Source: Azospira inquinata (GTDB lineage Bacteria > Pseudomonadota > Gammaproteobacteria > Burkholderiales > Rhodocyclaceae). Taken from it: a DNA stretch of 64,000 nt. Position 1 is the stretch's first letter. Each line of letters opens with the position of its first letter. The stretch covers positions 1,054,001 to 1,118,000 of the forward strand of contig NZ_CP064782.1 of NCBI RefSeq assembly GCF_018905915.1, in the 5' to 3' direction. Below are positions 1 through 60,665 of this stretch, piece after piece. Both the position numbers and the translations under genes were made by a program. Below the pieces are notes generated by a model. It made no database searches. It saw only the letters and a list, made by a program, of their open reading frames with translations, and was not told the origin of the DNA.

Positions 1-3000
1 CCAGACCATTTAGTTGAAAACCTGTATTGGTGTAATAAAGCGCCTGCATGGGCAGGTTCAGGCCCAACAGTTCAGAACCGTAGGCGCTGAGCAGGCGCAG
101 GACTCCGAAACGCTCCTTGGTAGCGGTGGAGGCCACCCGGTCATTGGTGCTATCCCCATCCGCGCTGAGATTCAAGGCCTTGGGGTCCAATGTCACCTGA
201 TCCGCATCTTTGGGCACCACCCCTAAAGTAAAGTTGTCGTATGGGCCGTCGGGAGACGCGGCACGAGCGAGCTGGACACAAGCAGAAAATTTCCCCTTCC
301 CAGCAGAAAAGCTCCCAGAAGGAAGGGCACAACTTCCTACGGACGCGCTATTTACCTGGATACGCCCAGCGGGAAAAGTGGTTTTTTGCCCCCCCAAATC
401 AATGCCCCAAAGGTTTAAATTGGAGGCGGAAACGCTGCTAGCCCCAGTAGAAGAAATCCAGTTAGCAGCCACCGTACCGTCAAGACGAGCCCAGGAAGTG
501 GAATTGCTATCCAATTTGCTGGTGTCGTAATTCACCGTGGGAGCGTTTGCCGAATTCCTCGCGGTAAGAATAAATGCCACCTGAATCGGCTCCCCCATAT
601 AAGTAAAGCCGTCCCCATTTCTGGAGTTGCAGGTCGTTTCACTTCGATTATCTAAGGTCACTGTGTCAACATCAAAATGGTCCGGCACGAACCTACCCCA
701 CAACGACTTTTGCGAAGTAGCAATATAACAACCTACTTTATCATTATCATTATTATCAGCCTGATTCAGATAGGCCGCCCCGCTAGTCTTATCGGTATAG
801 CAATCCTGAATACCATTTCCCTGGTCTACAGCGGTAAAAGTAGTGTCAACTATCGCGTAGGGGTTAAGAATAAAATAACCAACTTCCCCATAATTACACT
901 TCCCGCTGGCCGTACCGCTTACCGCAGCATCGATGGCACAAGTCAAAGGAGCGGGGGAAATAGAAGAAACACCTGTACTGGCATTAAAAGATGCCCCATC
1001 AAATATATTTGAGCTATCCAAACCAGGCGTACCGGAATAGCTGGATACGATGGCTGAGTTATTATCATAAGCTTGGATGCTCACGGAAAAATCCGCCCCA
1101 GCCTTAACCACCGAAGCCGTAGCAACCGTTCCACCGCCACTGGTGGGGCCCGTCGCAGAAAAGCTCAAATAGGCCGGACGGACAGAAAATGCATCAGTAG
1201 AGCAAGCCGGACCTACCTTAGAGGGAGATGTTTGAGTAACCTGCACATGGACTATTTTATACGCACTATTTAACGTTATATCGGAGGTAAGCCAATATCC
1301 ATTCTGCCCATCATGGGAACCTGCTGGAATAGTTATAGTCTGAGGCCCTCCAATCGGAGCGCCTTTACAAGCGGTTGATGAGTTACTGTCATCAAACAAC
1401 TGTACCTGAACCGTCTTCGGCACACTGGTGACATATCCGGAAAGAATGCTCGTAGCAACCCCCCCTGACACGTTTAAAGCAGCAATCACTAGCTTGAATG
1501 GCTGATTTACTAGCTTCGTGAAAATATGGCCAGAAATAGCATCCATATTACCCACATTACCATTGGTGCTAGTCCAATAATAGCTATCTATTGCATTAAA
1601 AGCCCCAGCCGCCGAGCCGTTAACCGGATATATCTTTAGTGCGCAAATACGCAACCCACTCAGCTCATGATAGTTGTAATTATCCCCAGTCGACCCAGTG
1701 AACGACAATTTCCAAAAGTCAGGCACCGCATTAATAGGTGTAGTTGGTTTAAGCGAATAAATATTACCCACATTCCACAAGGACGAATAAGCCGTTGGGC
1801 AAAAATCCGTTGTACATCCAGTAGTATTTATCTGAACGTTAGCCGATTGATTCGCTGCGGTATAATTTCTTGCATCGACGACAATCTGATAATAAGTGCC
1901 CACAGAATTATTGATAGGAACCGAGTTTGATTTACCTAAGAATGGATACCCATGCAAGTAGTCATTATAAAATGAGCCTCTAGCCGCCACCACCCCCGGG
2001 AAAGACCCGGGGCCACCAGTTCTGCCTTCACTATTGTTAGAATAATTACCAAATTCATCAAACCCCACCCCTAACCATCCCCCAGCAAAACCATTTATTC
2101 CGGTCTTTTGGGCATACCCAAGAGACCCCCCAAAGGCACCGGGGTTAGGCGTAACGTAGGAATCGGACAGTACCATCGCCAGCCCGTCGGCCCCATTGCC
2201 ACCATAAGCATATTGGCGAAACTCTACGGAAATGTAATTACCCGCAGCAGGGAAAACCGCACCCAAAGTTGCGGAGGTCGACTCTTTTGTAGCCGCACTG
2301 GTCAAACGCAAGCGATTATTGATGAAATTTGGAGTATAGGCATTACTCCCGGAAGAACTTACCGTCCAAGCTGAATTCAATATAGCAGAACTAAGACTAG
2401 TTCCGTTGAAGCTATCGCAATAGCAGGTGACTCCTGCTGGGACGAAGGCAGGCGTGGGGCACTGTCCCGTTGGTGCGGAACAGCGGTCATAACTACGGGA
2501 GGCATCCCCCGGGTCTGTCAAGGAATTCAGGTCGGAGGAGCACACTCCCACAACCGAACTGGATTTATCAATAGTCAAAGCGCTGGACCAGGCACCAGCG
2601 GTAACATTTCCATAGACTGTAGTATTGGTACTCAAATTAACCGTATTATTGGTCGAAATACTTACAGAGTTAGTAGATGTACCAATAGTGCTCCCCCCAA
2701 CCGAAATAGCGACACCATTTCCGCCCGCGACACTTCCTGACGGAATAGTCGTATTGGCAATACTAATGGTTCCCGCACTCGCCGTCACATTCCCGGTAAC
2801 CGTACTCCCGGTCAAGGTTACGCCACTACTATTGCCATTGGCTCCGCTATTTAAAGTAGCGCCACTAGCAAAAACACCGTTACCACTTACAGCACCAGAA
2901 ATAGTACCACCGGTAATAGACACTTTACCGCTACTATCGGTCACAGCGCCCGTTACACTGGTGTTTGTTAAGGTAAGGCCATTACCCTTTGCAGTCACAT

Positions 3001-3409
3001 CGCCATAAATAATGCTGGAACTACCCGAATTAGGCTGATTGGCCGCCATGGAATTATTTGAGACGGAAATATCAACGCTATCGGTGGGGTCCCCGATAGT
3101 ATTATTTCCATCCAGAACCAAGGTTCCAGAAGAAATCACAAGGGCAATGGAAGTTGACGCAGAAATAGTATCTCCATTTTTTAATTCAATACTTCCTGAG
3201 CAGGTGAACTGCGAATTGCCATATGTCCAGGTACCATTATTGCAATTCGGTAGATTGCTGGTCAGCCACCAGTTCCACCAATTAGCAGAAAAATAGTAAT
3301 CCGTAGCACAGGCTAACGGAGAAACAAAAAAAGTTACCAACAGCAGCAAAACGGCTACCGACCTACGTTCAAAAAATTGTATGAACCGCCATTTCAGTAA
3401 ATAATTCAT
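1..3409 (-). CDS. mshQ: MSHA biogenesis protein MshQ, lectin-like/DUF6701 protein (3' end cut by window edge)
   Basis: One frame stays open on the minus strand from ATG at 3409 to the window edge (1136 codons, no stop seen). The ATG overlaps the mshP stop as ATGA. An N-terminal hydrophobic segment (about residues 10-37) looks like a signal peptide. Residues about 60-300 are a repetitive Gly/Ser/Asn/Thr-rich, beta-helix-like stretch. Residues about 329-560 resemble an L-type lectin/concanavalin fold (GADGLAMVL, GWLGVGFDEFGNY). Later motifs such as FVPDHFDV near residue 907 are typical of the DUF6701 region of MshQ. It is last in the msh order, as in Vibrio. It is probably an exported adhesin or pilus-associated protein; the exact function is inferred. 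Composition is clearly more AT-rich than neighbouring genes. Confidence 0.82.
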   Translation of the reverse strand, partial: MNYLLKWRFIQFFERRSVAVLLLLVTFFVSPLACATDYYFSANWWNWWLTSNLPNCNNGTWTYGNSQFTCSGSIELKNGDTISASTSIALVISSGTLVLDGNNTIGDPTDSVDISVSNNSMAANQPNSGSSSIIYGDVTAKGNGLTLTNTSVTGAVTDSSGKVSITGGTISGAVSGNGVFASGATLNSGANGNSSGVTLTGSTVTGNVTASAGTISIANTTIPSGSVAGGNGVAISVGGSTIGTSTNSVSISTNNTVNLSTNTTVYGNVTAGAWSSALTIDKSSSVVGVCSSDLNSLTDPGDASRSYDRCSAPTGQCPTPAFVPAGVTCYCDSFNGTSLSSAILNSAWTVSSSGSNAYTPNFINNRLRLTSAATKESTSATLGAVFPAAGNYISVEFRQYAYGGNGADGLAMVLSDSYVTPNPGAFGGSLGYAQKTGINGFAGGWLGVGFDEFGNYSNNSEGRTGGPGSFPGVVAARGSFYNDYLHGYPFLGKSNSVPINNSVGTYYQIVVDARNYTAANQSANVQINTTGCTTDFCPTAYSSLWNVGNIYSLKPTTPINAVPDFWKLSFTGSTGDNYNYHELSGLRICALKIYPVNGSAAGAFNAIDSYYWTSTNGNVGNMDAISGHIFTKLVNQPFKLVIAALNVSGGVATSILSGYVTSVPKTVQVQLFDDSNSSTACKGAPIGGPQTITIPAGSHDGQNGYWLTSDITLNSAYKIVHVQVTQTSPSKVGPACSTDAFSVRPAYLSFSATGPTSGGGTVATASVVKAGADFSVSIQAYDNNSAIVSSYSGTPGLDSSNIFDGASFNASTGVSSISPAPLTCAIDAAVSGTASGKCNYGEVGYFILNPYAIVDTTFTAVDQGNGIQDCYTDKTSGAAYLNQADNNDNDKVGCYIATSQKSLWGRFVPDHFDVDTVTLDNRSETTCNSRNGDGFTYMGEPIQVAFILTARNSANAPTVNYDTSKLDSNSTSWARLDGTVAANWISSTGASSVSASNLNLWGIDLGGQKTTFPAGRIQVNSASVGSCALPSGSFSAGKGKFSACVQLARAASPDGPYDNFTLGVVPKDADQVTLDPKALNLSADGDSTNDRVASTATKERFGVLRLLSAYGSELLGLNLPMQALYYTNTGFQLNGL

Positions 3410-3837
3410 AGCGTCACCTCAATTCTTCGCTCGATATAGCCAGCACCCGGATTAGTGGTATTGGGACAAGCCCCGTTAGTCGGTTGATTACAGGCCACGG
3501 CTACAATGGAATAGACCACGGGATTGGAAACGGCCGCCGTACAGGTCACAGACACCGTAAATCCGGATAAGGTCGGCGCCGCCGGGGAAAAAGACTGGGG
3601 GGTAGCCACACAGGAGCCGTTGATGGATTGCCGATAAAGCCCCCATTCAATCCCGGCTCTGGCCGCCTGATAGGCCTGGCTCCCCTGGGCTTCCATCCCC
3701 AGCCGGGCGTTTTCTCCGGAAAAGAGATTGACCATGGCCGCCGCAATGGCGGCTAAGACCACAAGAATAAACAGGGCGGTGGCGATGGCAAAACCCGCCG
3801 AGCGCTTCTGTAGCAACACTTTCCTTGGCGTACTCAT
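3406..3837 (-). CDS. mshP: MSHA biogenesis protein MshP (PilX-like minor pilin)
   Basis: This 143-residue protein has a short basic N-terminus and one long hydrophobic helix (residues about 15-40, GFAIATALFILVV), followed by EARxG-like pilin features (AYQAARAGIEWGLY). The normal Glu at position +5 after the processing glycine is absent, as is usual for PilX/GspK-like minor pilins. Two cysteine-containing segments lie in the C-terminal half. It overlaps mshO upstream and mshQ downstream by ATGA junctions, which implies translational coupling. It likely acts in the inner membrane and pilus tip complex. The call rests on position between mshO and mshQ and on the helix pattern. Confidence 0.85.
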   Translation of the reverse strand: MSTPRKVLLQKRSAGFAIATALFILVVLAAIAAAMVNLFSGENARLGMEAQGSQAYQAARAGIEWGLYRQSINGSCVATPQSFSPAAPTLSGFTVSVTCTAAVSNPVVYSIVAVACNQPTNGACPNTTNPGAGYIERRIEVTL

Positions 3838-4703
3838 GGGGTGTTATCCACGTGGATTTCCCGGAACAGGCTAACGCAGTCACCGCCCCCCTGCCCCGCA
3901 GCGGAAGAGACATTCAGGGTGATACTCAACAGGCCGGAACGGGTGGCCCCCGGGTTGTTGGTGTAATTCACCGAACAGGTGATATGGTCCGCGACCATGG
4001 CCGAGCTGCCCGCTCCGGTCTGGCCGCTGAATCCATATTTCCAGTAGCGCATCAACTTGCCCCCATTACTCTGAGGGCAGGCCCCATTGGAGATGGCAGC
4101 CGGACAGGTATAGGCCACCGCCTGCTGGCTGGCGGGGACCACCTGAAAGCGGCTATTGGGGGATGGCAGGGGGGGGCTTTGGGCGGCAAAGGGATTGGCG
4201 CTGAGGGTCACCGTATTACCGGCAATCTTGCTGATGGCCGCCCGATTGGTGCCTGCATAGGCATTGCCCGGGTTGTCCCCGATGTTGAAGACCACGATGG
4301 AATCCCCCACTGCCATGCCCTGGGGCATGGGCCCCACCACATCGAAGGAGGTGGCAGCGGTATTGGTGAAATCCAGGGGGTTGCCTGCCTGTCCATCCCC
4401 CATATCCCGGTAACGGCCGCCCCCGCTGGTCATAATGAACTCAATGGTATTCACGCCCCCTGCCTGGGTAACCCGCAGGGAATTGGGCAGGGCCAAGTGC
4501 ACGTCCCGGGATAAACGGCGCAGCGCGGTATCCGCCACATCGGTCATATCCGCCCGGCGGGAGGAATCCATATAGGTGACGAAGGGCAAGCGCATGACGG
4601 TGGCGACAATAGCCACCAGAATGCCCATAACCACCATGGACACAATGGCTTCGACGAGGGTGAAGCCCCCCTGGCGGAGGATCGGTTGGAGAGGGGTATT
4701 CAT
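3834..4703 (-). CDS. mshO: MSHA biogenesis protein MshO (PilW-like minor pilin)
   Basis: The protein has 289 residues with a short leader and the prepilin site QGG|FTLVEA (Gly13, Glu18), then a hydrophobic helix to about residue 38. That makes it a substrate of prepilin peptidase. The large C-terminal globular part, with four cysteines, matches the size of MshO/PilW-type minor pilins. Start and stop overlap mshD and mshP by 4 bp each (ATGA), so mshD-mshO-mshP-mshQ form a tightly coupled block. It is expected to help initiate assembly of the MSHA-type pilus in the inner membrane. Confidence 0.88.
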   Translation of the reverse strand: MNTPLQPILRQGGFTLVEAIVSMVVMGILVAIVATVMRLPFVTYMDSSRRADMTDVADTALRRLSRDVHLALPNSLRVTQAGGVNTIEFIMTSGGGRYRDMGDGQAGNPLDFTNTAATSFDVVGPMPQGMAVGDSIVVFNIGDNPGNAYAGTNRAAISKIAGNTVTLSANPFAAQSPPLPSPNSRFQVVPASQQAVAYTCPAAISNGACPQSNGGKLMRYWKYGFSGQTGAGSSAMVADHITCSVNYTNNPGATRSGLLSITLNVSSAAGQGGGDCVSLFREIHVDNTP

Positions 4704-6010: not shown

Positions 6011-7858
6011 CTAGGGCTGGCAGACCTTCAAATCCGGGGCTTTCTGCCCTTCCGCCTTAGCCAGGGCCTTTGTCAAAGCCGCCAGCGCCTCTTCCGCCCC
6101 GGATTTCTTCTCCTTTTCCGCCGGGGTCCTGGTCCCCCGGGCAGCTAGGGCTAAATAGCGGCAAGCTTCTTCCGTCTTCCCCCGGGCCAGCAGGGTATTA
6201 CCCAGCAGGCGCCGGGTAACCGGCTCCCCGGGCAGCACTTGCAGGGCGGCCCGCAGCTTGGCTTCCGCCGCGGCCCCCTTACCCGCCAGCCCCAGGTTAA
6301 TGCCCTGAAGATTCAGACAGGTGCCCTTGAGGGGTGCCGGTATGGCCGCTTTTCCCCCCAAGGCCAGCACCTGATCACAACTGTGGGCGGCGGCGTTCAG
6401 GTCATTGCGCCCCAACTCCATGGCAATCATTTTCGCCAATACGGGGAAATTACCCGGATGTTGCTGGGCAAACTCCGCCAAGCTAGCTTCCCCTTCCTTG
6501 CCCTTGGCCAGCTGAAGAAAGCCCATGGCCCGGTTAATGGCCACATAGCCCGAATCCGGGTTATCCAACTGGGCCCAGGTCCACAGGGTCAAATCCCGCT
6601 GCCACAGGGGGGCCGTAACGCTCACCGTGTAGGCCGCTCCCATGAGCCACAGGCCCGCCACCAACAGTTTGGCGTAGGTAAAGGCCTGACGCCGGGTCTC
6701 CGCCCCGGCAGCCACGGGGCCATCGACCCAGGCCGCCACCGCCAGGGCAAAAAAGACAGCGGGCAGCATGAGGAAACGATCCTGATAGAAGCTGTCCGCA
6801 ATGGTCATGGGGCGGAGGTTAATGACGGGCACCACCGCCACCAGGGCCAGCAGGGAGTAGCCGGCGATCCGCCCCCAGGGGCCGTTCCGGGCCACGCCCC
6901 CCAGCAGCACCCAGGGCAGCACCAGAGCACCGATCAGGGCCCCCAGGGCCCAGCGGTCATGGGCAGCAATGGGCAGCAGGGTGCTATGCACCGGGGAGAC
7001 GGAGGCGAAGGGAAACACCATGGTGCGGCAATAGGCCATGAGGGATTTACCCACCAGCAGGGCATGCTGCCAGGGCGTACCGGCCCCCTGGGGAATCTGA
7101 CGCACCGGATGGAGCAGATAGCCCAGCACCCCGTAGCGAATGGCCAGGTAGGCCAGACCGGTGACCAGGAGTCCAAGCCAGAGGCGCCATTGGGGCAACA
7201 AACTCCGCCCCAGGGCAGCCTTCAGGGACAGGCCACCCCGACGCTGGTCGAGAAACACCAACCCCACCATGAGCAGGGGGAAGGGCGCCACGGATTCCTT
7301 GCAGAAAGCCGCCAGGAAAAAGCCCAGGCAGAGCACCACGACGGACGTCCAGCGCCCCCGGGTCAGCCGCCAGGCCCAGAGGCCGAGCAGCAGAAAAAAG
7401 GTGGCCATCAAGTCGAAGCGGCCGGAAATCCAGGCCACCGCCTCCACCAGGGCCGGGTGGAGACCGAAAAACAGGGCGCCCAAAATGGCCCCCAGAAGGG
7501 AAGCGCCGCTACGCCGGATAAAGTCGAAAAGCAGGGCCGTACTGGCCAGATGCAAGACCAGATTGGTGACGTGGGGAATGGCCGGGTTTAGCCCCCCCCA
7601 GACCCCCTCGGGGAAAAAGGAGGCCAGCGCCAGGGGCCGGTAATAGTCCGCCGAGAGCACCAGGGGCGCCCCCAGGGTCGGCCAGAAGTGACGGAAGCTA
7701 CGGAAGGTGTCCCCTTTGAGGAAGAAGGTGTAGTCATCCCAGACGTAGCCGTAATCCCAGACGCCCCAGTAGGAAAACAACACCATGAACAGGCACAGGG
7801 CCAGGCCCAGCAACACCCGGTGCCGGGCCACAAAGGGATTTTCGAGAATGGAAGACAT
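6011..7858 (-). CDS. TMTC-like GT-C membrane glycosyltransferase with C-terminal TPR-like region
   Basis: This polytopic membrane protein has about 615 residues from ATG 7858; an in-frame TTG at 7876 overlaps the upstream stop and is an alternative start. An Asp-Asp pair lies in the first periplasmic loop (WDDY, Asp41-Asp42). The segment HPALVEAVAWISGR near residues 134-147 resembles the HP-x-x-EAVAW-x-SGR signature of TMTC/DUF1736 O-mannosyltransferase-like proteins. About ten further membrane segments follow, then a soluble helical tail (from about residue 425) that looks like TPR repeats. It lies between mshA and mshC, a position not occupied in the canonical msh operon. Transfer of a lipid-linked sugar to pilin is inferred, not shown. 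Confidence 0.7.
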   Translation of the reverse strand: MSSILENPFVARHRVLLGLALCLFMVLFSYWGVWDYGYVWDDYTFFLKGDTFRSFRHFWPTLGAPLVLSADYYRPLALASFFPEGVWGGLNPAIPHVTNLVLHLASTALLFDFIRRSGASLLGAILGALFFGLHPALVEAVAWISGRFDLMATFFLLLGLWAWRLTRGRWTSVVVLCLGFFLAAFCKESVAPFPLLMVGLVFLDQRRGGLSLKAALGRSLLPQWRLWLGLLVTGLAYLAIRYGVLGYLLHPVRQIPQGAGTPWQHALLVGKSLMAYCRTMVFPFASVSPVHSTLLPIAAHDRWALGALIGALVLPWVLLGGVARNGPWGRIAGYSLLALVAVVPVINLRPMTIADSFYQDRFLMLPAVFFALAVAAWVDGPVAAGAETRRQAFTYAKLLVAGLWLMGAAYTVSVTAPLWQRDLTLWTWAQLDNPDSGYVAINRAMGFLQLAKGKEGEASLAEFAQQHPGNFPVLAKMIAMELGRNDLNAAAHSCDQVLALGGKAAIPAPLKGTCLNLQGINLGLAGKGAAAEAKLRAALQVLPGEPVTRRLLGNTLLARGKTEEACRYLALAARGTRTPAEKEKKSGAEEALAALTKALAKAEGQKAPDLKVCQP

Positions 7859-7872
7859 GGCAACAGGCAGTT

Positions 7873-9393
7873 TCAAAAAGCGGGGGCACCGGCCCCGGGG
7901 ACCAGGCGCACCAGGGCGCTCCCCGGTTCTCCGGACGCCTGGAAGCGGATAATGGCTGCCCGCAAGGCGGCGGCACTGGCCCCATCCACCCCATAAAGGG
8001 AAACCACGCTGGAAGCCGGGGTAATCCGGGGCGGGGGCAGGAGCAAGACCCCCACCTTGATCCAGGAGGAAGGCCGCCGGGGAAACCAGTTATCGTAAAT
8101 GAAGGCGTAGCGCACCCCGTGGGCCGCCATGAGCTGGCCCATCCAGGCCCCATCCCGGGCCGTGCGGCGGTAATTGAGGGCCTCCCGGGAGCCTAGGCCC
8201 CACAGATCCAGCACATATTGTCCCGAGTTATAGGCCATCCATCCAAGGTCGTTCACCGCTACCGGGGACTTCAGAAAATCCCGGTTCAGCAGGCTCATCT
8301 GGTATTGCTGGTCGTGGATATTGCGGGCGGCAGCGGGGGTCAGCATGGTGCAGATGCGCAGCACGGGAAAAAACCAGAGCAGCACCATCACCATCAGGAC
8401 CGCCCAGACGGCCTGACCCTTGGGAAGCCGCTCCTGTTCCAGGAACCGCCCCACCATGAGGAAACCGTACATCAGGAAAAAGACCTCATAGCGGCCAAAC
8501 CAGCCATAGCGCCCGCCGGCCAGATACAGCAAGGCAGGACCAAGCAGGAGGAAAAAGACCTCCTCCGCCCGGCGCCGCACCAGAAGAAATATCGTGGCTC
8601 CCAGCAACAGGACCCAGTAGGGCCACAGGGCAAAAAGATTGGCCAGAGCATTGAGGCCCATGCCGCCCAGGGGATGGCCCTGGCCCAGGACGGACTTCAC
8701 CATGATGGAAGCGGGCAGATAGTCCAGACCCAGGGCCAACAAAAAGAGGGAAAAAGCCCCCAGCAAGGCGACGGAAGCGCCCAGGGAAACCAGGGACGCC
8801 TTACGCTGCCCCCGCCAGAAGGCATAGGCCAGGAGGGGCAGGGTAATGGCCCCATCCTCGTAGCGCACCAGGGGCAGCAGTACGGCCAGCCAGTAAAAGA
8901 GCGGTGGAGGCTGATCCCGGTCCCACAACGTCACCAGCCACACCACCAGAAAGACCTGGAGGGAATGTTCCAGGCCGGTAAAAACCAGTCCGTAGATATT
9001 CAGGAGATAAAGCAGGGCCAAGCTTAGGATGGCACTCCACCACCACTTCCAGAAGCGGGAGAAATAGCGAAAGAGCAGGAGGGCGGTACCGCCGCAGGCC
9101 AGGGTGTTGATAACCAAGGGCAGCCAGTCGAAATGGGGCAGCCGGGCCCAGGGGGCCAACAGAAAGGGCCACAGGATGCTGGAAGACGGCGCATCCACTT
9201 CCCCCGGATTCAGGCCGTAATGGCCCAGGTTCAGTTGTTTCGCCAGGGCCAGATGGATGTAGGGATCATCCAGGGTATAGAACATTCCCCCGCACTGGGC
9301 GTAGATCAGCCAACCCAGCCAGACTAGAGGCAGGGACAGCAACACGGCCCAGCCCAGGGAAACTTTGAGGGATGAAGAATGAGCGCCAAACAT
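7873..9393 (-). CDS. GT-C-fold polytopic membrane protein, probable lipid-linked sugar transferase
   Basis: The protein has 506 residues with a first membrane helix at about residues 12-30, then the loop motif TLDDPYIHLALA (Asp42-Asp43) and NPGEVDAPSSSILWPF. This combination is typical of GT-C glycosyltransferases such as arabinosyl/mannosyltransferase-like enzymes. About ten further hydrophobic segments follow, and a C-terminal periplasmic part. The start is ATG 9393. It is the first gene after the mshA terminator and overlaps or abuts the TMTC-like gene. The context suggests pilin or surface glycan modification; donor and acceptor are unknown. Confidence 0.65.
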   Translation of the reverse strand: MFGAHSSSLKVSLGWAVLLSLPLVWLGWLIYAQCGGMFYTLDDPYIHLALAKQLNLGHYGLNPGEVDAPSSSILWPFLLAPWARLPHFDWLPLVINTLACGGTALLLFRYFSRFWKWWWSAILSLALLYLLNIYGLVFTGLEHSLQVFLVVWLVTLWDRDQPPPLFYWLAVLLPLVRYEDGAITLPLLAYAFWRGQRKASLVSLGASVALLGAFSLFLLALGLDYLPASIMVKSVLGQGHPLGGMGLNALANLFALWPYWVLLLGATIFLLVRRRAEEVFFLLLGPALLYLAGGRYGWFGRYEVFFLMYGFLMVGRFLEQERLPKGQAVWAVLMVMVLLWFFPVLRICTMLTPAAARNIHDQQYQMSLLNRDFLKSPVAVNDLGWMAYNSGQYVLDLWGLGSREALNYRRTARDGAWMGQLMAAHGVRYAFIYDNWFPRRPSSWIKVGVLLLPPPRITPASSVVSLYGVDGASAAALRAAIIRFQASGEPGSALVRLVPGAGAPAF

Positions 9394-17957: not shown

Positions 17958-19460
17958 ATGTCTCCCCACTTCCCCTCCGCCCCATTCCCTGCCCCCTCTT
18001 CCCCCCGTCCGCCCCATGGCTGGAGCCGTCTGGCCGCCTGCTGCCTGATGCTGATCTGGGGATTGGGGGCCATCCAGCCCGCCCTGGCGGCCAAAGAAAA
18101 GGAACGGAGCCACAAGGAAAAAGACTCGCCCCCGGAAAAAACGGCGATCCGCAGCGCCCAGAAGCAGATGAATCAGAAGCAGGGTGATTTGCAGGATGTA
18201 CGGGGCAAGCTCACCCATTTGCGCAAGGAAGTGGCCACCACGGAAAAAACCCGCTCCGATGTGGCGGACCAGTTGCAGGACGTGGAGCGGAATATTTCCT
18301 CCGCCACCCGGGAGCTGCGGGATCTGGCGGATCAGCGCAATAGCCTCCAGGACAAGCTGCACAGCCTGGCGGACCAATCCCGGGTCCTGTCAGGCACCCT
18401 GGATACCCAGCAGAACCAGCTCCAGAAGCTAGTGGTCCGCCAGTACACCCGGGGGGACACGGACTCCCTGCGCCTGCTCCTGAACGGTAACGACCCCAAC
18501 CAGATCGCCCGGGACATGTATTACCTGGCCGCCGTGGCCAAGGCCCGCAGTGCCTTGATGCAGCAGCTGGGAGAATCCCTCAAGCAGAAGCAGGACCTGG
18601 CGGAAGAAACCAAGCGCCAGGAAGGGGAACTGGCCCGGGTGGAAGCCAAGCAAAAGGATGAGCAGGCTCGGCTGGAAAGCCTGAAACAGCAGCGCCAGGC
18701 CACCCTGGCCCAGCTCTCGGACCGGATTGCGGACCGGCGTAAGCAGATCACCTCCCTACAACAGGACGAAAAGCATCTCTCCGACCTAGTCGCCAATCTG
18801 TCCAAGTCCATCGCCGAAGCCCAGGCCCGGGAAAAGGCCCGGGCGGAGGCCGCTGCCCGGGCACGGGCCAAGGCTGAAGCGGCAGCCCGGGCCAAAGCGG
18901 AGGCCGAAGCCAAGGCGGCGGCCCGAGCCCAGGCCCTGGCCAGGGAAAAGGCGGCCAAAGCAGGTAAGCCCCTGCCGCCGCAAAAGCCCATCCCCCGCCC
19001 GGCTCCGCCCCCCCGGGAACCGGAGCTGCAAAACGAAAAAATTCCGGAAGCCGTTCCCAGCGGCGCCTTCGCCCGCCTCAAGGGCAGCCTGCACCTGCCA
19101 GTCCGGGGCGCGGTCAGCAACCGCTTCGGCAGTAAGCGTGGCGAAGGTGGCTCCTGGAAGGGCGTCTTCGTCCGAGCTGGCGCCGGCAGCGAGGTTCGGG
19201 CAGTGGCCGGCGGCCGGGTGGCCTTCGCCGACTGGATGCGGGGGTTTGGCAACCTGCTCATCATCGACCACGGGGATGGTTACATGACCATCTACGGCAA
19301 TAACGAATCCCTCTATAAAAAAGCCGGGGATACGGTGAAAGGTGGGGATGTAATCGGGGCCGTCGGCAGCAGCGGTGGCAACGGAGAATCCGGTTTATAC
19401 TTTGAACTTCGCCGTCAAGGACAACCGCTCGACCCATTGCAGTGGGTGGGCTTGAAGTAG
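17958..19460 (+). CDS. envC: EnvC-like murein hydrolase activator (coiled coil plus degenerate LytM domain)
   Basis: The start is set at ATG 17958 (500 residues); an upstream in-frame TTG 17895 exists but gives a Pro/Arg-rich stretch. A signal peptide ends near residue 44. Residues about 65-320 are a long coiled coil ending in an Ala/Arg/Glu-rich run. The C-terminal M23/LytM domain (about residues 395-498) has GGRVAFADWMRGFGNLLIIDHGDG but lacks the zinc-binding His residues of active enzymes (GVFVRAG and LYFELR in place of H-x-G-x-D and HxH). That matches EnvC, which activates AmiA/AmiB amidases at the septum. It is followed by ctpA. Confidence 0.9.
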   Translation: MSPHFPSAPFPAPSSPRPPHGWSRLAACCLMLIWGLGAIQPALAAKEKERSHKEKDSPPEKTAIRSAQKQMNQKQGDLQDVRGKLTHLRKEVATTEKTRSDVADQLQDVERNISSATRELRDLADQRNSLQDKLHSLADQSRVLSGTLDTQQNQLQKLVVRQYTRGDTDSLRLLLNGNDPNQIARDMYYLAAVAKARSALMQQLGESLKQKQDLAEETKRQEGELARVEAKQKDEQARLESLKQQRQATLAQLSDRIADRRKQITSLQQDEKHLSDLVANLSKSIAEAQAREKARAEAAARARAKAEAAARAKAEAEAKAAARAQALAREKAAKAGKPLPPQKPIPRPAPPPREPELQNEKIPEAVPSGAFARLKGSLHLPVRGAVSNRFGSKRGEGGSWKGVFVRAGAGSEVRAVAGGRVAFADWMRGFGNLLIIDHGDGYMTIYGNNESLYKKAGDTVKGGDVIGAVGSSGGNGESGLYFELRRQGQPLDPLQWVGLK

Positions 19461-42905: not shown

Positions 42906-43505
42906 ATGGCCGTTCTCGTCGGCAAGCAAGCTCCGGACTTCAGCGCCTCCGCCGTACTCGGTAACAACGAAATCAAGGACATCAAGCTGTCCGAATTCGT
43001 CAAGGGCAAGTACACCCTGCTGTTCTTCTACCCCCTGGACTTCACCTTCGTCTGCCCCTCCGAAATCATCGCTTTCGACCACCGTCTGGAGGAATTCAAG
43101 AAGCGCAATGTGGAAGTCATCGGCTGCTCCATCGACTCCCCCTTCACCCACCTGGCCTGGAAAAACACCCCGGTGGAAAAGGGCGGCATCGGCAAAGTGG
43201 GCTACACCCTGGTGTCCGATGTGAAACACGAAATCATCCAAGCCTATGACGTGGAATCCGCCGGTGGCGTGGCTTTCCGTGGCGCCTTCCTGATCGACAA
43301 GGAAGGGGTGGTGCGTCACCAATACGTGAACGACGGCCCCCTCGGCCGTAACGTGGACGAATTCATCCGCCTGGTGGACGCCCTCCAATTCACCGAAGAA
43401 CACGGGGAAGTCTGCCCCGCCGGCTGGCAAAAAGGCCAATCCGGCATGAAGGCCTCCACCGAAGGCGTGGCCGACTACCTGGCCAAGAACGCCGCCAAGC
43501 TGTAA
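42906..43505 (+). CDS. 2-Cys peroxiredoxin (AhpC/Prx1 type)
   Basis: The 199-residue protein carries the peroxidatic Cys50 in FTFVCPSE and the resolving Cys170 in GEVCPAGW, so it is a typical 2-Cys enzyme of the Prx1/AhpC group. It reduces hydrogen peroxide and alkyl peroxides in the cytosol, recycled by thioredoxin or AhpF; neither is adjacent. The C-terminal tail ends in GVADYLAKNAAKL. A strong AAGGAGA ribosome site precedes ATG 42906 and a strong terminator follows, so it is likely highly expressed and monocistronic. Confidence 0.96.
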   Translation: MAVLVGKQAPDFSASAVLGNNEIKDIKLSEFVKGKYTLLFFYPLDFTFVCPSEIIAFDHRLEEFKKRNVEVIGCSIDSPFTHLAWKNTPVEKGGIGKVGYTLVSDVKHEIIQAYDVESAGGVAFRGAFLIDKEGVVRHQYVNDGPLGRNVDEFIRLVDALQFTEEHGEVCPAGWQKGQSGMKASTEGVADYLAKNAAKL

Positions 43506-43525
43506 GCCCCGTAGCCGCAAGGCGC

Positions 43526-43560
43526 AAAAAAAAAGCCGCTCTTTGGAGCGGCTTTTTTTA
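43526..43560. terminator. Bidirectional terminator after the peroxiredoxin gene
   Basis: AGCCGCTC and GAGCGGCT pair with loop TTTG, followed by seven T residues and preceded by nine A residues. It marks the end of the core operon and the start of the low-GC island. Confidence 0.92.
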
Positions 43561-43696
43561 TGGGCAGCAGGCAGAATCGGAAGGCTAAGTGTAGAGCGGA
43601 GTTTTGGGGATGACGAAAACCGCGCTAACTAAGGCCTCCGGTAGCACGGGTCGTCTCCTGACTAAAAGCGGAAGTTGCCGGCTTGGAAAAGCAGAC

Positions 43697-43765
43697 GTTC
43701 AACGTGGAGTTGAGGGGCCTCGCACGGTTTTTCGCGCGAGGCCCCTCTCGAACGCAGGGTTAGAC
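43697..43765 (-). other. attC-like recombination site 2 (integron cassette end)
   Basis: On the minus strand this 69-bp element begins with an R'' box GTCTAAC, then after 5 bases an L''-like GTTCGAG. A perfect 12-bp inverted repeat (GAGGGGCCTCGC / GCGAGGCCCCTC) follows. It ends with L'-like CTCAAC, 5 bases, and the R' box GTTGAAC, which fits GTTRRRY. Size, box order and spacing match attC (59-base) elements of integron cassettes. It lies 25 bp after the stop of the minus-strand gene at 43790, as expected for a cassette. Confidence 0.7.
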
Positions 43766-43789
43766 CTCTTGGTAGCTACCGCTCGCATT

Positions 43790-44236
43790 TCAGTCCGAGC
43801 TTGAACCAACGATAACAACTGCCTCATTCTCTTTCCTGAGCAGAAACGCAAAATCCCAGAAAACAGGATAGGCGGGGTGCCCCTCCTTCAACCAGAACCG
43901 CTCAATTCGTGTTGATCGCGCAACGGCAGCACCTACTTCGGCGAGCACGGTATCAAGCAGCTCTGCAAAGTGCTCGGACTGCATTGCCTGTGGAGCGGGG
44001 CCAGCGCCACTGTCCCCTGCATAGGTAAGCGACTCTTTAACCTCTGCCAACGCCTCCGCAGGCGTGACCTCGCTGCAACCACCAACAACCGCCGTAGCAC
44101 CCAGCGCACTATGTATGACCACCTCTGACGAGACGCTCGCAGCGAAGGGCGTGCCGTAGCTCTGAAGAAAGACGCTGTAGTTCCAGCCTGCAGCATTGAG
44201 GAACTCAGCTAGAGCAGAGAGAGCATCTTGGTTCAT
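43790..44236 (-). CDS. Hypothetical protein in an integron-like cassette
   Basis: This 148-residue protein has no signal peptide, membrane segment or motif I recognise. It is Ala- and Glu-rich with a central VEEx-like helical region and a C-terminal Leu/Val-rich end (FWDFAFLLRKENEAVVIVG). The ATG at 44236 is only 9 bases after an attC-like R' box, and an attC-like site follows the stop. Base composition is lower in GC than the host genes. Such one-gene cassettes commonly encode proteins of unknown function; I offer no role. Confidence 0.7.
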   Translation of the reverse strand: MNQDALSALAEFLNAAGWNYSVFLQSYGTPFAASVSSEVVIHSALGATAVVGGCSEVTPAEALAEVKESLTYAGDSGAGPAPQAMQSEHFAELLDTVLAEVGAAVARSTRIERFWLKEGHPAYPVFWDFAFLLRKENEAVVIVGSSSD

Positions 44237-44245
44237 CGCGAAGAG

Positions 44246-44301
44246 GTCTAACGTCCTAACTAATCGGCGCTCCGCCGCTAGGCGGAGCGCCCGTGTTGAT
44301 A
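44246..44301 (-). other. attC-like recombination site 1 (integron cassette end)
   Basis: On the minus strand a perfect 11-bp inverted repeat (GGCGCTCCGCC / GGCGGAGCGCC, loop TAGC) is followed after 13 bases by an R' box GTTAGAC. The left end has a weak R'' candidate TATCAAC, which departs from RYYYAAC at two positions. The site is short (56 bp) but sits exactly between two same-strand genes, with the R' box 9 bases before the next ATG. Confidence 0.6.
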
Positions 44302-44318
44302 TCTATGGGCACACTGCT

Positions 44319-44996
44319 TCAACCGGGGTTCCTCTTAAGCTCAAGCTTTCCATTACGAATAGCGTCAATGAGCGTGTCGACACTTCCATCGCTCGGCTTG
44401 CGGCGCTTGTAGTCTTCAAGATTCTTTAGGGCCTGATCTTTGTCGCCAAGCATCAAATACGTCATACCGATAGCGTACGCTGCATCAACAACACCAACGG
44501 AAAGCGCTTTTTCAAGGTAAGTGAGGGCCTCTTTCGGCTTACCAATGCCCGCGAGAAACGTTCCATACATGTAGTTACCCCGCGGATCAGAAGGTATTGC
44601 CGCAAGGAGCTTGAGGAAGATTGAATTCGCTTTTTCAGCTGCCCCGGGAACATCAAGATTGTGGCCCATGCTATTGAGGTAGCCAGCTCGGATTAGAAGG
44701 TCTGGATTTGGGGTCGGGACGTTAATCATGATGTCTAGCAGTCCAGACACCACCTTCACGTCTTGGGCAGCGCGTTGTTTATCTTGTGGAGTATCAAATA
44801 TGGGCGGGTAGTTCTTCGCATGGGCCGAGAGATCATTCAGTATTTGGTCAAGATACGCACCATTAAAACCATATTTCTTCCCCGAAGGAGTTTCTGAAAT
44901 CGTAAGCAAACGCTTAGGATCGTAGTGTCCGTACTCCCTCGCACTTGCGTTGAATGCAACAAGTACTACGAGAACAGCAAGAGCAAGTTTTCGCAT
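44319..44996 (-). CDS. Secreted TPR-repeat protein, cassette-like
   Basis: ATG 44996 gives 225 residues with a clear signal peptide (MRKLALAVLVVLVAFNASA); an upstream ATG 45011 adds five residues. After residue about 115 there are TPR/Sel1-like helical pairs (GNYMYGTFLAGIGKPKEALTYLEKAL, AYAIGMTYLMLGDKDQALKNLEDYKR). The protein is probably periplasmic or exported and mediates binding. It is AT-richer than the core genes and is followed by an attC-like site, so it may be the first gene of a cassette array. No upstream attC or attI was found. Confidence 0.78.
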   Translation of the reverse strand: MRKLALAVLVVLVAFNASAREYGHYDPKRLLTISETPSGKKYGFNGAYLDQILNDLSAHAKNYPPIFDTPQDKQRAAQDVKVVSGLLDIMINVPTPNPDLLIRAGYLNSMGHNLDVPGAAEKANSIFLKLLAAIPSDPRGNYMYGTFLAGIGKPKEALTYLEKALSVGVVDAAYAIGMTYLMLGDKDQALKNLEDYKRRKPSDGSVDTLIDAIRNGKLELKRNPG

Positions 44997-45290
44997 GATG
45001 TATAGATACATAACGTAATGTGGACGTTACTTCGCAAGGTTACTCAGACGTGTGACGGATAACCTAGCGCCCATCATTAGGTAATCAATTGTTTTAAACA
45101 ATGAATCTCCGAATACTGTCAGCCAACACACAGTACTAAATATTTCGCCATCCCCCGCAAACACTCAAAAAGTGCCAATGGCATTATACGGCCGCTTTTC
45201 GGTAGTTTGATCTTTGAGCGCTCTTGGCCGAAGGCAGAAGCAAGCCCCCCCCCTATCTCCCGCCCCCACATCAGCCTCAAACCTCCCCCT

Positions 45291-45698
45291 TCACGGCTGC
45301 CCATCCACCACCAGTTGATACTTTTCCCCGCCCGGGGAAACGCAATCTCCCAAGGCCCGGGAGCCTCCAAAGAGGAACTGGCAGCTTAGTTGGGCGCCGT
45401 CTTCCGCTTTCAGGTAGGCCCGGGCGGCGTTGCTGTTGATGATGGTGGTGCTGTCCCGGGGGAAACCCCGCCAGGCGGGCCAGCTTTGGGTGGTGGTGGC
45501 CAGGCCGGTTTCCACCAGGTAGAAGCCCCGGTAATGGCGAGTGCCGATATCCACGCTCAGGGTCTGGGGCCCGGGCAGGAAGGTGCCCCGATAGACATGG
45601 GCCTGGCTATCCAGCAACTGGAAGGGCACGGGGGCCGGAGCGGCGCAGCCGGCCAGGGCGAGGCAGGATAGGGCGGCAGGCTTCCAGGGAAAGGTCAT
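45291..45698 (-). CDS. Small predicted lipoprotein
   Basis: ATG 45698, with AGGAG six bases ahead, gives 135 residues. A lipobox LALAGC (Cys near residue 18) marks lipid attachment. The mature part has strand-like sequence (FQLLDSQAHVYRGTF, RHYRGFYLVETG) and two cysteines near the end (LSCQFLFGGSRALGDC) that could form a disulfide. It may be a periplasmic or outer-membrane anchored protein. I do not recognise the family. It is divergent from the barrel gene at 45878. Confidence 0.8.
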   Translation of the reverse strand: MTFPWKPAALSCLALAGCAAPAPVPFQLLDSQAHVYRGTFLPGPQTLSVDIGTRHYRGFYLVETGLATTTQSWPAWRGFPRDSTTIINSNAARAYLKAEDGAQLSCQFLFGGSRALGDCVSPGGEKYQLVVDGQP

Positions 45699-58183: not shown

Positions 58184-59683
58184 TTAGCGGGCAGAACCGG
58201 TCGGCCGGTCGCCCCAGCCCAGCACCCCGGGTAGCAGGCAGAGCACGGCCAGTATCAGCATCAGGACATTGCCCCAGCGGGCATAGGGGGTGAGCCCCTG
58301 GTAGCCCTGCACATCCCCCACCAGAGCGCCCCGGGTAAAGGGGGGCAGCTGGTCCTGGACCCGGCCATCCGGGGTGATGATGGCGGTCATGCCCGTATTG
58401 GTGGCCCGCAGCATGGGGCGGCCGTTTTCCATGGCCCGCAGGCGGGAAATTTGCAGGTGCTGGGGCTGGGCCAGGGAACGGCCAAACCAGGCGGTGTTGG
58501 ACATATTCACCAGCAGGGTGGCCCGGGGCAGGGCCTGGCGGATTTCCTCGCCGAAGCCGTCCTCATAGCAGATATCCGGCGCCACCTGCTGCCCGGCCAG
58601 GGCCAGGGGGGGACGCCCCACCTGGCCCGGAGTGAAGTCGGACATGGGCATGTGCATCATGTCCAGGAACCAGGCGAAGCCCGGGGGAATGTATTCGCCG
58701 AAGGGCACCAGATGGGCTTTGTCATAGCGCTGCATGGGGGAAGCCCCCAGGCTCACGGCGCTGTTGGTGTAGCGCTCCCCTTCCCCATACACCACCCCCA
58801 CCAGCACATCCCCCTTCTGGCGATGGACCAGATCCCGCAGGTCGGAGAGAAATTCCGGAGGCAACTGCTGGTAATAGGCGGGCAGCGCCGTTTCCGGCAG
58901 CACGGTGAGTTTGGCCGGGTTTTCCAGCACCAGCCGCAGATAGGATTCCAGGGAATCGTAAAATCGTTCCGGCTGCCACTTCATATCCTGGGCAATATTC
59001 CCCTGGAGCAGGGCCACCCGTACCGGCGCCCCCACGGGATGGACCCAGGGCACCCGGGTCAGGCCATAGCCGCCCCCCAGGATCAGGGCCACGGGCAGAA
59101 GCATGGTCCAGCGCCGGGAAGCCACCACCTCGGCGGCGCAGGCGGCCAGCAGGGCGGTCACCAGGCCCATGCCATAGACCCCCAGCACCGGGGCGAACCC
59201 GGCCAGGGGACTGGGGGGGGTCTGGGAATAGCCGAGACTGAGCCAGGGGAAACCGGTGAGGAACCAGCCCCGGGCCCATTCGGTCAGGGTCCAGAGACCG
59301 GCGAAGGCGAACACCAGAGCCCAGGGTCCCAGCCCCCGGCCCTTCAGGCGCCCCAGGCCCCAGGCGGCCAGGGCGGGGAAAAGGCCCAGATAGGCGCACA
59401 GCAAGGCGCTGGCGAAGGCGGCCATGGGCAGGGCCATGCCACCGAAGTCGTGAAGACTCACGTAAACCCAGGAAACCCCGGCGAGGAAATGGCCAAAGCC
59501 GAAGGTAAAGCCCAGCCAGCCCGCTTCCCGGGGGCTGTCGGCCCGGGACACGAACAGATAGAAACCGGCCCAGGCCAGCCAGGCCAGGGGAAACCAGCCG
59601 AAGGGGGCAAAGGCGGCCACGGCCATGGCACCCAGGCCGCAGGTGGCCACGCTGAAAAATCGACGACGGGGAATGGCAGCCAT
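58184..59683 (-). CDS. lnt: Apolipoprotein N-acyltransferase Lnt
   Basis: ATG 59683 is chosen (499 residues; MAAIPRRRFFS), because the frame further up has no conservation. Six or more membrane helices (residues about 10-220) are followed by a periplasmic nitrilase-like domain with the catalytic Glu (LPETALP), Lys (YDKAHLVPFGEY) and Cys (DICYEDGF). It adds the third acyl chain to outer-membrane lipoproteins. It is last of miaB-phoH-ybeY-corC-lnt. The predicted lipoproteins in this window would be its substrates. Confidence 0.95.
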   Translation of the reverse strand: MAAIPRRRFFSVATCGLGAMAVAAFAPFGWFPLAWLAWAGFYLFVSRADSPREAGWLGFTFGFGHFLAGVSWVYVSLHDFGGMALPMAAFASALLCAYLGLFPALAAWGLGRLKGRGLGPWALVFAFAGLWTLTEWARGWFLTGFPWLSLGYSQTPPSPLAGFAPVLGVYGMGLVTALLAACAAEVVASRRWTMLLPVALILGGGYGLTRVPWVHPVGAPVRVALLQGNIAQDMKWQPERFYDSLESYLRLVLENPAKLTVLPETALPAYYQQLPPEFLSDLRDLVHRQKGDVLVGVVYGEGERYTNSAVSLGASPMQRYDKAHLVPFGEYIPPGFAWFLDMMHMPMSDFTPGQVGRPPLALAGQQVAPDICYEDGFGEEIRQALPRATLLVNMSNTAWFGRSLAQPQHLQISRLRAMENGRPMLRATNTGMTAIITPDGRVQDQLPPFTRGALVGDVQGYQGLTPYARWGNVLMLILAVLCLLPGVLGWGDRPTGSAR

Positions 59684-59816
59684 GAACGGCAACACTCTTC
59701 TGAATTCGGAAAACGTTTGAAAAGGCGGGGAAACCACCGGCCCCGGGTTCCCGGCCACCGGGAGCGCTCCCGCCACTGCGCCCGGCAGGATACCCGGAAG
59801 GGGCCGCCGGGGGAAA

Positions 59817-60665
59817 TCAGGCAGCCGGGGCTTCCGTCCGGGGCAGGCGTTCCACCAGGAGGGTATAGAGGCGCCGGCTGTCCGCCCGCAGCACCTGGAA
59901 TTTCAAGCCCTCCAGCTCCAGCACCTCATTGCGCTTGGGCACCCGGCCCAGGGCGGCCATCACCAGCCCCCCCACCGTATCGCAGCTCTGATCCTCGAAA
60001 TGGGTGCCGAAGGTTTCGTTGAAGGCGTCGATCTCGGTCTGGGCCTTGACTCGGTAGCGGCCGGACTGGTCCTGGAGAATGTTGTCCTTGTCCTCATCGA
60101 AGTCGTATTCGTCTTCGATGTCCCCCACGATCTGTTCCAGCACATCCTCGATGGTCACTAGGCCAGCCACGCCGCCGTATTCGTCCACCACAATAGCCAT
60201 GTGATTGTGGGAGACCCGGAATTCCCGGAGCAGCACGTCCAGACGCTTGGATTCGGGGATAAAGACGGCGGGACGAAGCCAGTCCCGGAGGGCGAAGGCC
60301 GGGTCGCCAAAGGCCCGCAGCAGGTCTTTGGCCAGGAGGATGCCCAGGATGTCGTCCTTGTTGTCCCCTACCACGGGGAAACGGGAGTGGGCGGTGGTAA
60401 TGACCGTGGAAATCAGGGCCGGCAGAGGCTGATCCAGGGTGAGGAAATCCATCTGGGCCCGGGGCACCATCACGTCCCGCACGGCGGTTTCGGAGGCGGC
60501 CAGGGCCCCTTCGATAATGGTCAGGGCGTCCGCGTCGAGCAGGCTGCGCTCGAAGGCGGAATGGAGCAATTCCAGGAGTTGCTCCCGGTCCTCCGGCTCC
60601 CGCAACAGGAGGGAGGACAAGCGTTCAAGAAAAGTGGGTTTGGGGGTACTGGGGGAACTGTCCAT
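59817..60665 (-). CDS. corC: CorC/HlyC-type CBS-domain protein
   Basis: The 282-residue protein has two CBS domains (about residues 60-185, VMVPRAQMDFLTLDQPLPAL and FIPESKRLDVLLREF) and a C-terminal CorC/HlyC transporter-associated domain (about 200-275). It has no membrane helices, like E. coli CorC. A role in magnesium or cobalt efflux is known for the family but not settled. It sits between ybeY and lnt in the conserved operon. Confidence 0.94.
   Translation of the reverse strand: MDSSPSTPKPTFLERLSSLLLREPEDREQLLELLHSAFERSLLDADALTIIEGALAASETAVRDVMVPRAQMDFLTLDQPLPALISTVITTAHSRFPVVGDNKDDILGILLAKDLLRAFGDPAFALRDWLRPAVFIPESKRLDVLLREFRVSHNHMAIVVDEYGGVAGLVTIEDVLEQIVGDIEDEYDFDEDKDNILQDQSGRYRVKAQTEIDAFNETFGTHFEDQSCDTVGGLVMAALGRVPKRNEVLELEGLKFQVLRADSRRLYTLLVERLPRTEAPAA

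Follow-up and report, generated by a model that had tools for sequence, protein, structure and literature searches.

The window, the whole 64,000-nucleotide stretch of Azospira inquinata DNA analysed here, carries on its minus strand an array of two gene cassettes. The array is preceded by a conserved leader of about 225 bp and followed by a conserved tail. Cassette 1 codes for a TPR protein and cassette 2 for a 148-aa protein without an assigned function, and each gene is followed by an attC-like hairpin element. The features are listed below in the order in which the array is read, with positions counted along the window.

45014-45237, minus strand: conserved leader upstream of the first cassette, with a promoter-like module, a truncated intI start and a predicted attI
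45183-45188, minus strand: TATAAT, a -10-like hexamer in a highly conserved block of the leader
45136-45161 (approximate), minus strand: block corresponding to about the first eight intI codons, antisense and with the start codon gone, bounded at profile position 77
45008-45050, minus strand: putative attI core, also present next to an intact intI and next to intI relics at three loci
44252-45013, minus strand: cassette 1, 762 bp, TPR protein (ORF 44319-45011, likely start 44996)
44246-44310, minus strand: attC of cassette 1, degenerate, with a weak R'' box
43703-44251, minus strand: cassette 2, 549 bp, 148-aa protein (ORF 43790-44236)
43697-43765, minus strand: attC of cassette 2
43597-43702, minus strand: conserved tail after the last attC

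An initial annotation made from the sequence alone had described this locus as an integrase-less, CALIN-like cassette array in a low-GC island. A sequence check found the two minus-strand genes, the box strings and the hairpins all present as written. The low-GC island is also real, with 51.9% GC at 44001-45000 and mostly 59-70% in the remaining window. The annotation was likewise right that the window holds no intI, and none of the six Phage_integrase matches in the genome falls inside it. An array of cassettes with no intI next to it is supported, but calling it CALIN-like is incomplete, because a conserved leader and a conserved tail are present as well.

Two other compositional features were seen in the window. 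Positions 1-4000 have a lower GC content (46-52%) and are possibly a further island. A strong AT skew (0.36-0.45) with normal GC occurs at 7001-9000, 18001-19000 and 59001-60000.

One sound and one worn attC site

The attC covariance model, a check that the initial annotation had proposed, was built from 16 attC sites at other loci and included neither the window sites nor the two homologues nearest to them. It recovered 43697-43765 exactly (61.2 bits, E 3.4e-13), whereas the site at 44246-44310 scored 13.8 bits (E 0.22). Beyond these two sites, a search of both strands of the 64 kb gave zero model matches up to E 5. The higher-scoring site has minus-strand boxes GTCTAAC (43765-43759) and GTTGAAC (43703-43697) and a perfect 12-bp inverted repeat. 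The other has a perfect 11-bp inverted repeat and an R' box, GTTAGAC, at 44252-44246, with the next ATG (44236) 9 bases on. It is to this second site, which comes first in array order, that the weak R'' box actually belongs; the initial annotation had placed it at 43697-43765.

The 44246-44310 site shares 80% identity with a proper attC (L012 4244-4315, 40.9 bits) of an array at 277 kb in the same genome (L and G numbers denote loci and genomes). On the basis of this identity and of the two scores, we regard 43697-43765 as a well-supported attC and 44246-44310 as a degenerate homologue of a genuine site. When folded as plus-strand DNA, both sites beat 200 of 200 shuffles (z of -4.4 and -4.0). 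Chance hairpins were considered and are ruled out by the covariance model and by the homologous sites elsewhere.

A leader that joins a promoter-like module to an attI

The initial annotation found no site upstream of the TPR gene. That place is occupied at 45014-45237 by an attI-type leader, not by an attC. A leader profile searched with nhmmer matches 45009-45237 with 193 bits (E 1e-58), the window copy itself being within the profile. In a pairwise comparison, the window leader is 71% identical over 206 bp (E 3e-21) to the leader of an array at 1418 kb in the same genome.

In L039 and L106, the sequence next to the intI relics aligns with profile positions 77-233. L105 gives two separate matches, with 34.7 bits for positions 185-233 and a weak 8.9 bits for a piece starting from 77. 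The leader match in all three loci starts at profile position 77, which is the point where the coding sequence of the intI relic takes over, and the L039 stretch from 77 to about 98 corresponds in antisense to about the first eight intI codons. The sole link to an intact intI comes from L121, where a weaker attI match (23.3 bits) lies at the expected place. Because the same sequence abuts three intI relics and, weakly, an intact intI, the 3' half of the leader is, as judged from these alignments, an attI. Crossover in the window attI is expected between 45014 and 45013 (ACG/TT, cut after ACG). Divergence among leaders begins straight after ACGTT.

Profile positions 1-76, which carry GTATAATGCCATTGGCAC, form a separate module at the place where intI would be expected. 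The fusion of this upstream module to the attI part is common to all 17 aligned leader copies. Column conservation peaks at 88% in both the -10 block and the attI core; it is 85% for the intI-start block and 68% in the middle. The -10-like box, which reads TANNAT in 14 of the 17 copies, suggests that the leader may function as a promoter; a sigma-70 consensus scan of 43400-45400 did not find a full promoter.

The motifs GGCCAGAAGCGGCC and CCGCTTTGGGTCG occur in leader positions 1-54, in the tail, and at 1707-1756 and 2457-2537 of L039, and they resemble a short repeat dispersed in these genomes. This repeat may have mediated the loss of intI.

Two other readings of the leader can be weighed at this point. 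It could be a structured regulatory RNA ahead of the cassette genes, as its conservation might suggest, and the ORF picked by script behind each leader starts 9-32 nt after it in 14 of 25 loci. However, the consensus fold of 17 copies reaches only -3.05 kcal/mol, with 8 pairs of which 2 have double changes, an Rfam scan of the window gave zero matches at gathering score, and the pattern of conservation fits an attI and a -10 box. A regulatory RNA is thus a highly improbable explanation. The leader could instead be coincidental host sequence beside which IntI inserted cassettes at ordinary chromosomal attG sites, which are named as IntI targets in the accessible text of two reports (PMC12901181; PMC12444791). 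Such insertion is scarcely credible here, given that the leader of about 225 bp recurs ahead of unrelated cassettes at different loci.

attC sites and a conserved tail accompany the leader

The attC model gave 37 matches at E≤0.01 among 26 leader loci from 17 genomes, and 16 of these 26 loci stayed outside construction of the leader profile. Downstream of a leader, on its strand and within 3 kb lie 34 of the 37 matches, against an expected share of 10.9%; six of the 37, from five loci, are training members of the model, whose training sites lie mainly downstream of leaders or intI. At least one downstream same-strand attC is found at 18 of the 26 leaders, and at 13 of 21 when the five training loci are left out. 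Two of the eight leaders that have no downstream attC match are cut by a contig end (L115, L119).

The window tail alone matches L039 (E 0.002). A tail profile was assembled from six members, one each from the window and L012 and two each from L035 and L039, and every one of them follows a last attC. This profile also matches array ends in L108 (9e-7), L112 (2e-10) and, weakly, L113 (0.016), and it has a match in L119 at a place that is not tied to the leader there.

Because the array starts at a conserved leader with a promoter-like module and an attI, and ends in a conserved tail, we favor a platform over a bare attC cluster. Judging from the sequence comparisons, the locus is probably (roughly a three in four chance) a dispersed intI-less integron platform that consists of the promoter-like module and attI, two cassettes and the tail, and that is loaded in trans.

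Distribution of the leader

The genome of origin carries leaders in the window, at 1418 kb and at 292 kb, as well as a partial copy at 444 kb and, at 277.5 kb, a remnant that scores a weak 14 bits. Among 395 genomes of the family searched with the leader consensus, 43 have matches at E≤0.01, many of these short. (The family is called Rhodocyclaceae here; NCBI puts Dechloromonas in Azonexaceae.) Matches of at least 60 bits occupy at least 20 places in 15 of the 395 genomes and in six genera, including that of the window, with two attI-only places in G051 excluded. Two candidates per genome were scored in this search, and copy numbers are therefore lower bounds.

Leader copies inside one genome are 61-70% alike (7 pairs) and so are no closer to each other than copies are overall (mean 64.6%, 18 copies). 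The nearest relative of the window leader is an Oryzomicrobium copy, at 74%. A search of plasmids and phages with the window leader in distant mode gave no match, and a 233-base query diverging to about 65% comes close to what that search mode can detect. One of six contig records from a motif scan (L055, Cloacimonadota) was dropped because it looked like a chance coding match.

Comparisons between strains

The 1418-kb array is missing from a conserved site in both congeners. We take its two neighbours to be a gene resembling exonuclease III and a small YqjD/ElaB-like gene; the stretches that match them lie about 165 bp apart there and about 2.29 kb apart here. At the window locus the peroxiredoxin side is conserved in both congeners and the opposite flank is non-syntenic in both, so that the comparison yields no empty site for the window array. 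The initial annotation had said that its reading would be refuted if no attC matched the covariance model and the two genes stood in conserved synteny in distant relatives; an attC match exists, and the second flank is non-syntenic in the two congeners.

A closer view of possible cassette turnover comes from two close relatives, G326 and G146. One of their leaders, together with the flank upstream of it, matches between them at 93% identity over 5.7 kb, and the cassettes differ. The identity breaks off at the attI R box and resumes (84%) at the R' box of the last G326 attC, and blastn between the cassettes of the two genomes found zero similarity. At the right-hand break in G146, where the R' box reads ACGTCGAGC, no attC match ends. 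G146 has no intI at E≤1e-20, and the one intI of G326 has a stop codon inside. This pattern is what cassette exchange at an intI-less platform would leave. Homologous recombination between leaders, or decay, is also possible, because the two leaders are only 80.9% alike in comparison with 95.8% over 2 kb of flank, and because of the missing attC at the right-hand G146 break.

Two further comparisons involve the same pair of genomes. The 1280-kb array of G146 shares one flank with G326 at about 94%, with neither leader nor tail in the matching stretch, and its other flank is unshared. For a second G146 array the leader is absent from G326, but the gap starts 587 bp past the leader and is therefore unclean.

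These observations bear on a different route of spread, in which leader, array and tail form a MITE-like transposon unit that is moved by a transposase in trans, with the attI as passive cargo. Several arrays are indeed bracketed by the conserved leader and the conserved tail, and relatives lack one array at a conserved site. However, terminal inverted repeats or target duplications were not established at the compared sites, which are diverged or unclean, the tail is present at only part of the arrays, and differences in cassettes break at attI and attC boxes, away from the ends of the presumed unit. We consider such a unit unlikely as the explanation of the arrays, although dispersal by a MITE-like route is compatible with the intI-less platform that we favor.

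Integrase supply

A tblastn search for intI covered at least 4.0 kb upstream of every one of the 26 leaders and left 25 loci without a trace. The sole exception is L039, where a relic lies beside a second attI, and no leader among the 26 has intI directly beside it. An intI that is open over its length exists in five of the 17 leader-bearing genomes (G176, G358, G280, G165 and G020); in the remaining 12 it is broken, partial or absent at E≤1e-20. The intI pieces of G098 are in shifted frames, and the matches in G211, at 36% identity, are probably other recombinases.

The genome of the window has intI only as an internally deleted relic (residues 1-125 and 273-333) at 2082 kb, about 1 Mb away, and for this reason the window array is probably frozen or inactive today. 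The relic locus (L015, G000:C1:2082175-2085000) also has a LexA-like box recognized by eye, a different attI and two attC matches. One of its cassettes has a weak PADLOC match to a TIR effector.

This broken intI, together with the relics that adjoin attI in L039, L105 and L106, speaks for an alternative, an ordinary CALIN, under which each locus once held a complete integron, its intI decayed there, and the array is what remains. However, independent decay at each locus would not yield an upstream module and a fusion common to all 17 aligned leaders. The absence of the 1418-kb array from the conserved site in both congeners, and leader copies that are no more alike within a genome than overall, also argue against it. 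We therefore judge decay in place to be rather improbable.

Cassettes and cargo

The cargo is as the initial annotation described it, one protein with no assignment and one TPR protein with a likely signal peptide. Pfam TPR matches support the assignment of the cassette 1 product, and its signal peptide was judged by eye. The TPR gene has a 68% DNA homologue in the congener G020 (L067:5581-6261), with no attC-model or leader-profile match there.

The 148-aa protein of cassette 2 matches zero Pfam, NCBIfam or PADLOC families. It has 100 further relatives at E≤0.001, many from short metagenome contigs, and a functional name appears on only one partial match among them; a search of viral contigs found no relatives. 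Its structure model is confident (pLDDT 91.5), and a fold match in the PDB is absent at E≤0.001, as is a solved relative by sequence search.

Integrons are able to carry phage defence. In a survey of first cassettes, a script took one ORF behind each of 25 leaders, and for a few loci (for example L035, L040 and L112) this is perhaps not the true first gene. Full-length matches to PADLOC models were found in four of the 25 ORFs: PDC-S54 (L036), PDC-S21 (L039), bSEFIR (L108) and PDC-S14 (L110). Weak partial matches occur in three more (L107, L113 and L119). None of ten ordinary window genes used for comparison matched, nor did the two cassette genes of the window. The first-slot cassettes of L036, L039, L108 and L110, which lie directly behind the leader, are single-gene defence candidates.

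A proposed origin and relation to known systems

The usual integron picture has one integrase, one attI and one array. The platform favored here could have arisen when a deletion left an ancestral integron without intI. The break would have fused a short repeat carrying a -10-like box to about codon 8 of the gene and spared the attI, as the shared fusion point suggests. The resulting leader of about 225 bp has spread to many loci and genera, as its distribution shows. An IntI made elsewhere, either in the same cell or during transfer, would act in trans and recombine the attI with the attC of circular cassettes at the ACG/TT junctions seen here, and the putative leader promoter would drive the first cassette.

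A bolder version of this model is that Rhodocyclaceae host 'satellite integrons', where a horizontally spreading unit of about 225 bp, with attI and promoter, is multicopy in some genomes and is independently loaded by IntI encoded elsewhere. Some of the cassettes would be single-gene phage-defence candidates, and the platform would outlive the enzyme. We offer this version tentatively, at somewhat below even odds, and we infer the step from an orphan attI to an active satellite served in trans.

If the model is true, one genome can hold many first-position, expressed cassette slots that are served in trans by one integrase, and the dispersed leader would be an origin for some CALINs. The leader would also provide a sequence handle for arrays of one or two cassettes, which rules based on attC counts can miss. 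In the window, one attC scores well, and the 44246 site falls below significance, though it is homologous to a good attC. Finally, the leader system would be open to direct testing in environmental Rhodocyclaceae.

The arrays resemble sedentary chromosomal integrons in their attI-type leader, same-strand cassettes with attC sites and G/TT junctions. They differ in that intI is missing, its truncated start is fused to another module, and some genomes carry several dispersed copies. CALIN is the IntegronFinder term for attC clusters lacking integrase (PMC9024848). As that source presents the definition, a cluster of attC sites without intI is shared with the arrays described here, whereas the conserved attI and promoter-like module at the start are not asked for.

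A CALIN with its own attI occurs in the Shewanella prophage M16-3 (PMC9892861), and there too an attI heads an intI-less cassette array. That example is a single instance, lying next to a complete integron within one prophage, and the accessible parts of the report describe neither an intI-truncating module nor dispersal across genera. The deltaattI-type gene cassettes (PMC12901181) likewise have a partial attI apart from intI, but the available text presents it as part of a cassette in mobile integrons, whereas in the arrays described here it forms the 5' docking site. The Xanthomonas CALINs at non-ilvD loci (PMC12444791) are likewise intI-less and occupy several places in the chromosome, and the portions of the source at hand do not describe a common attI leader for them. 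Thus, intI-less attC clusters and one attI-bearing CALIN are known already. The literature searched, which included few subscription papers, yielded no description of a leader family in which a dispersed attI with truncated intI heads arrays across genera.

Two further leaders, in L041 and L114, are truncated internally. A GTTAGAT or GTTAAGT box and an ORF come soon after each of them, and these loci are possible deletion derivatives of the platform.
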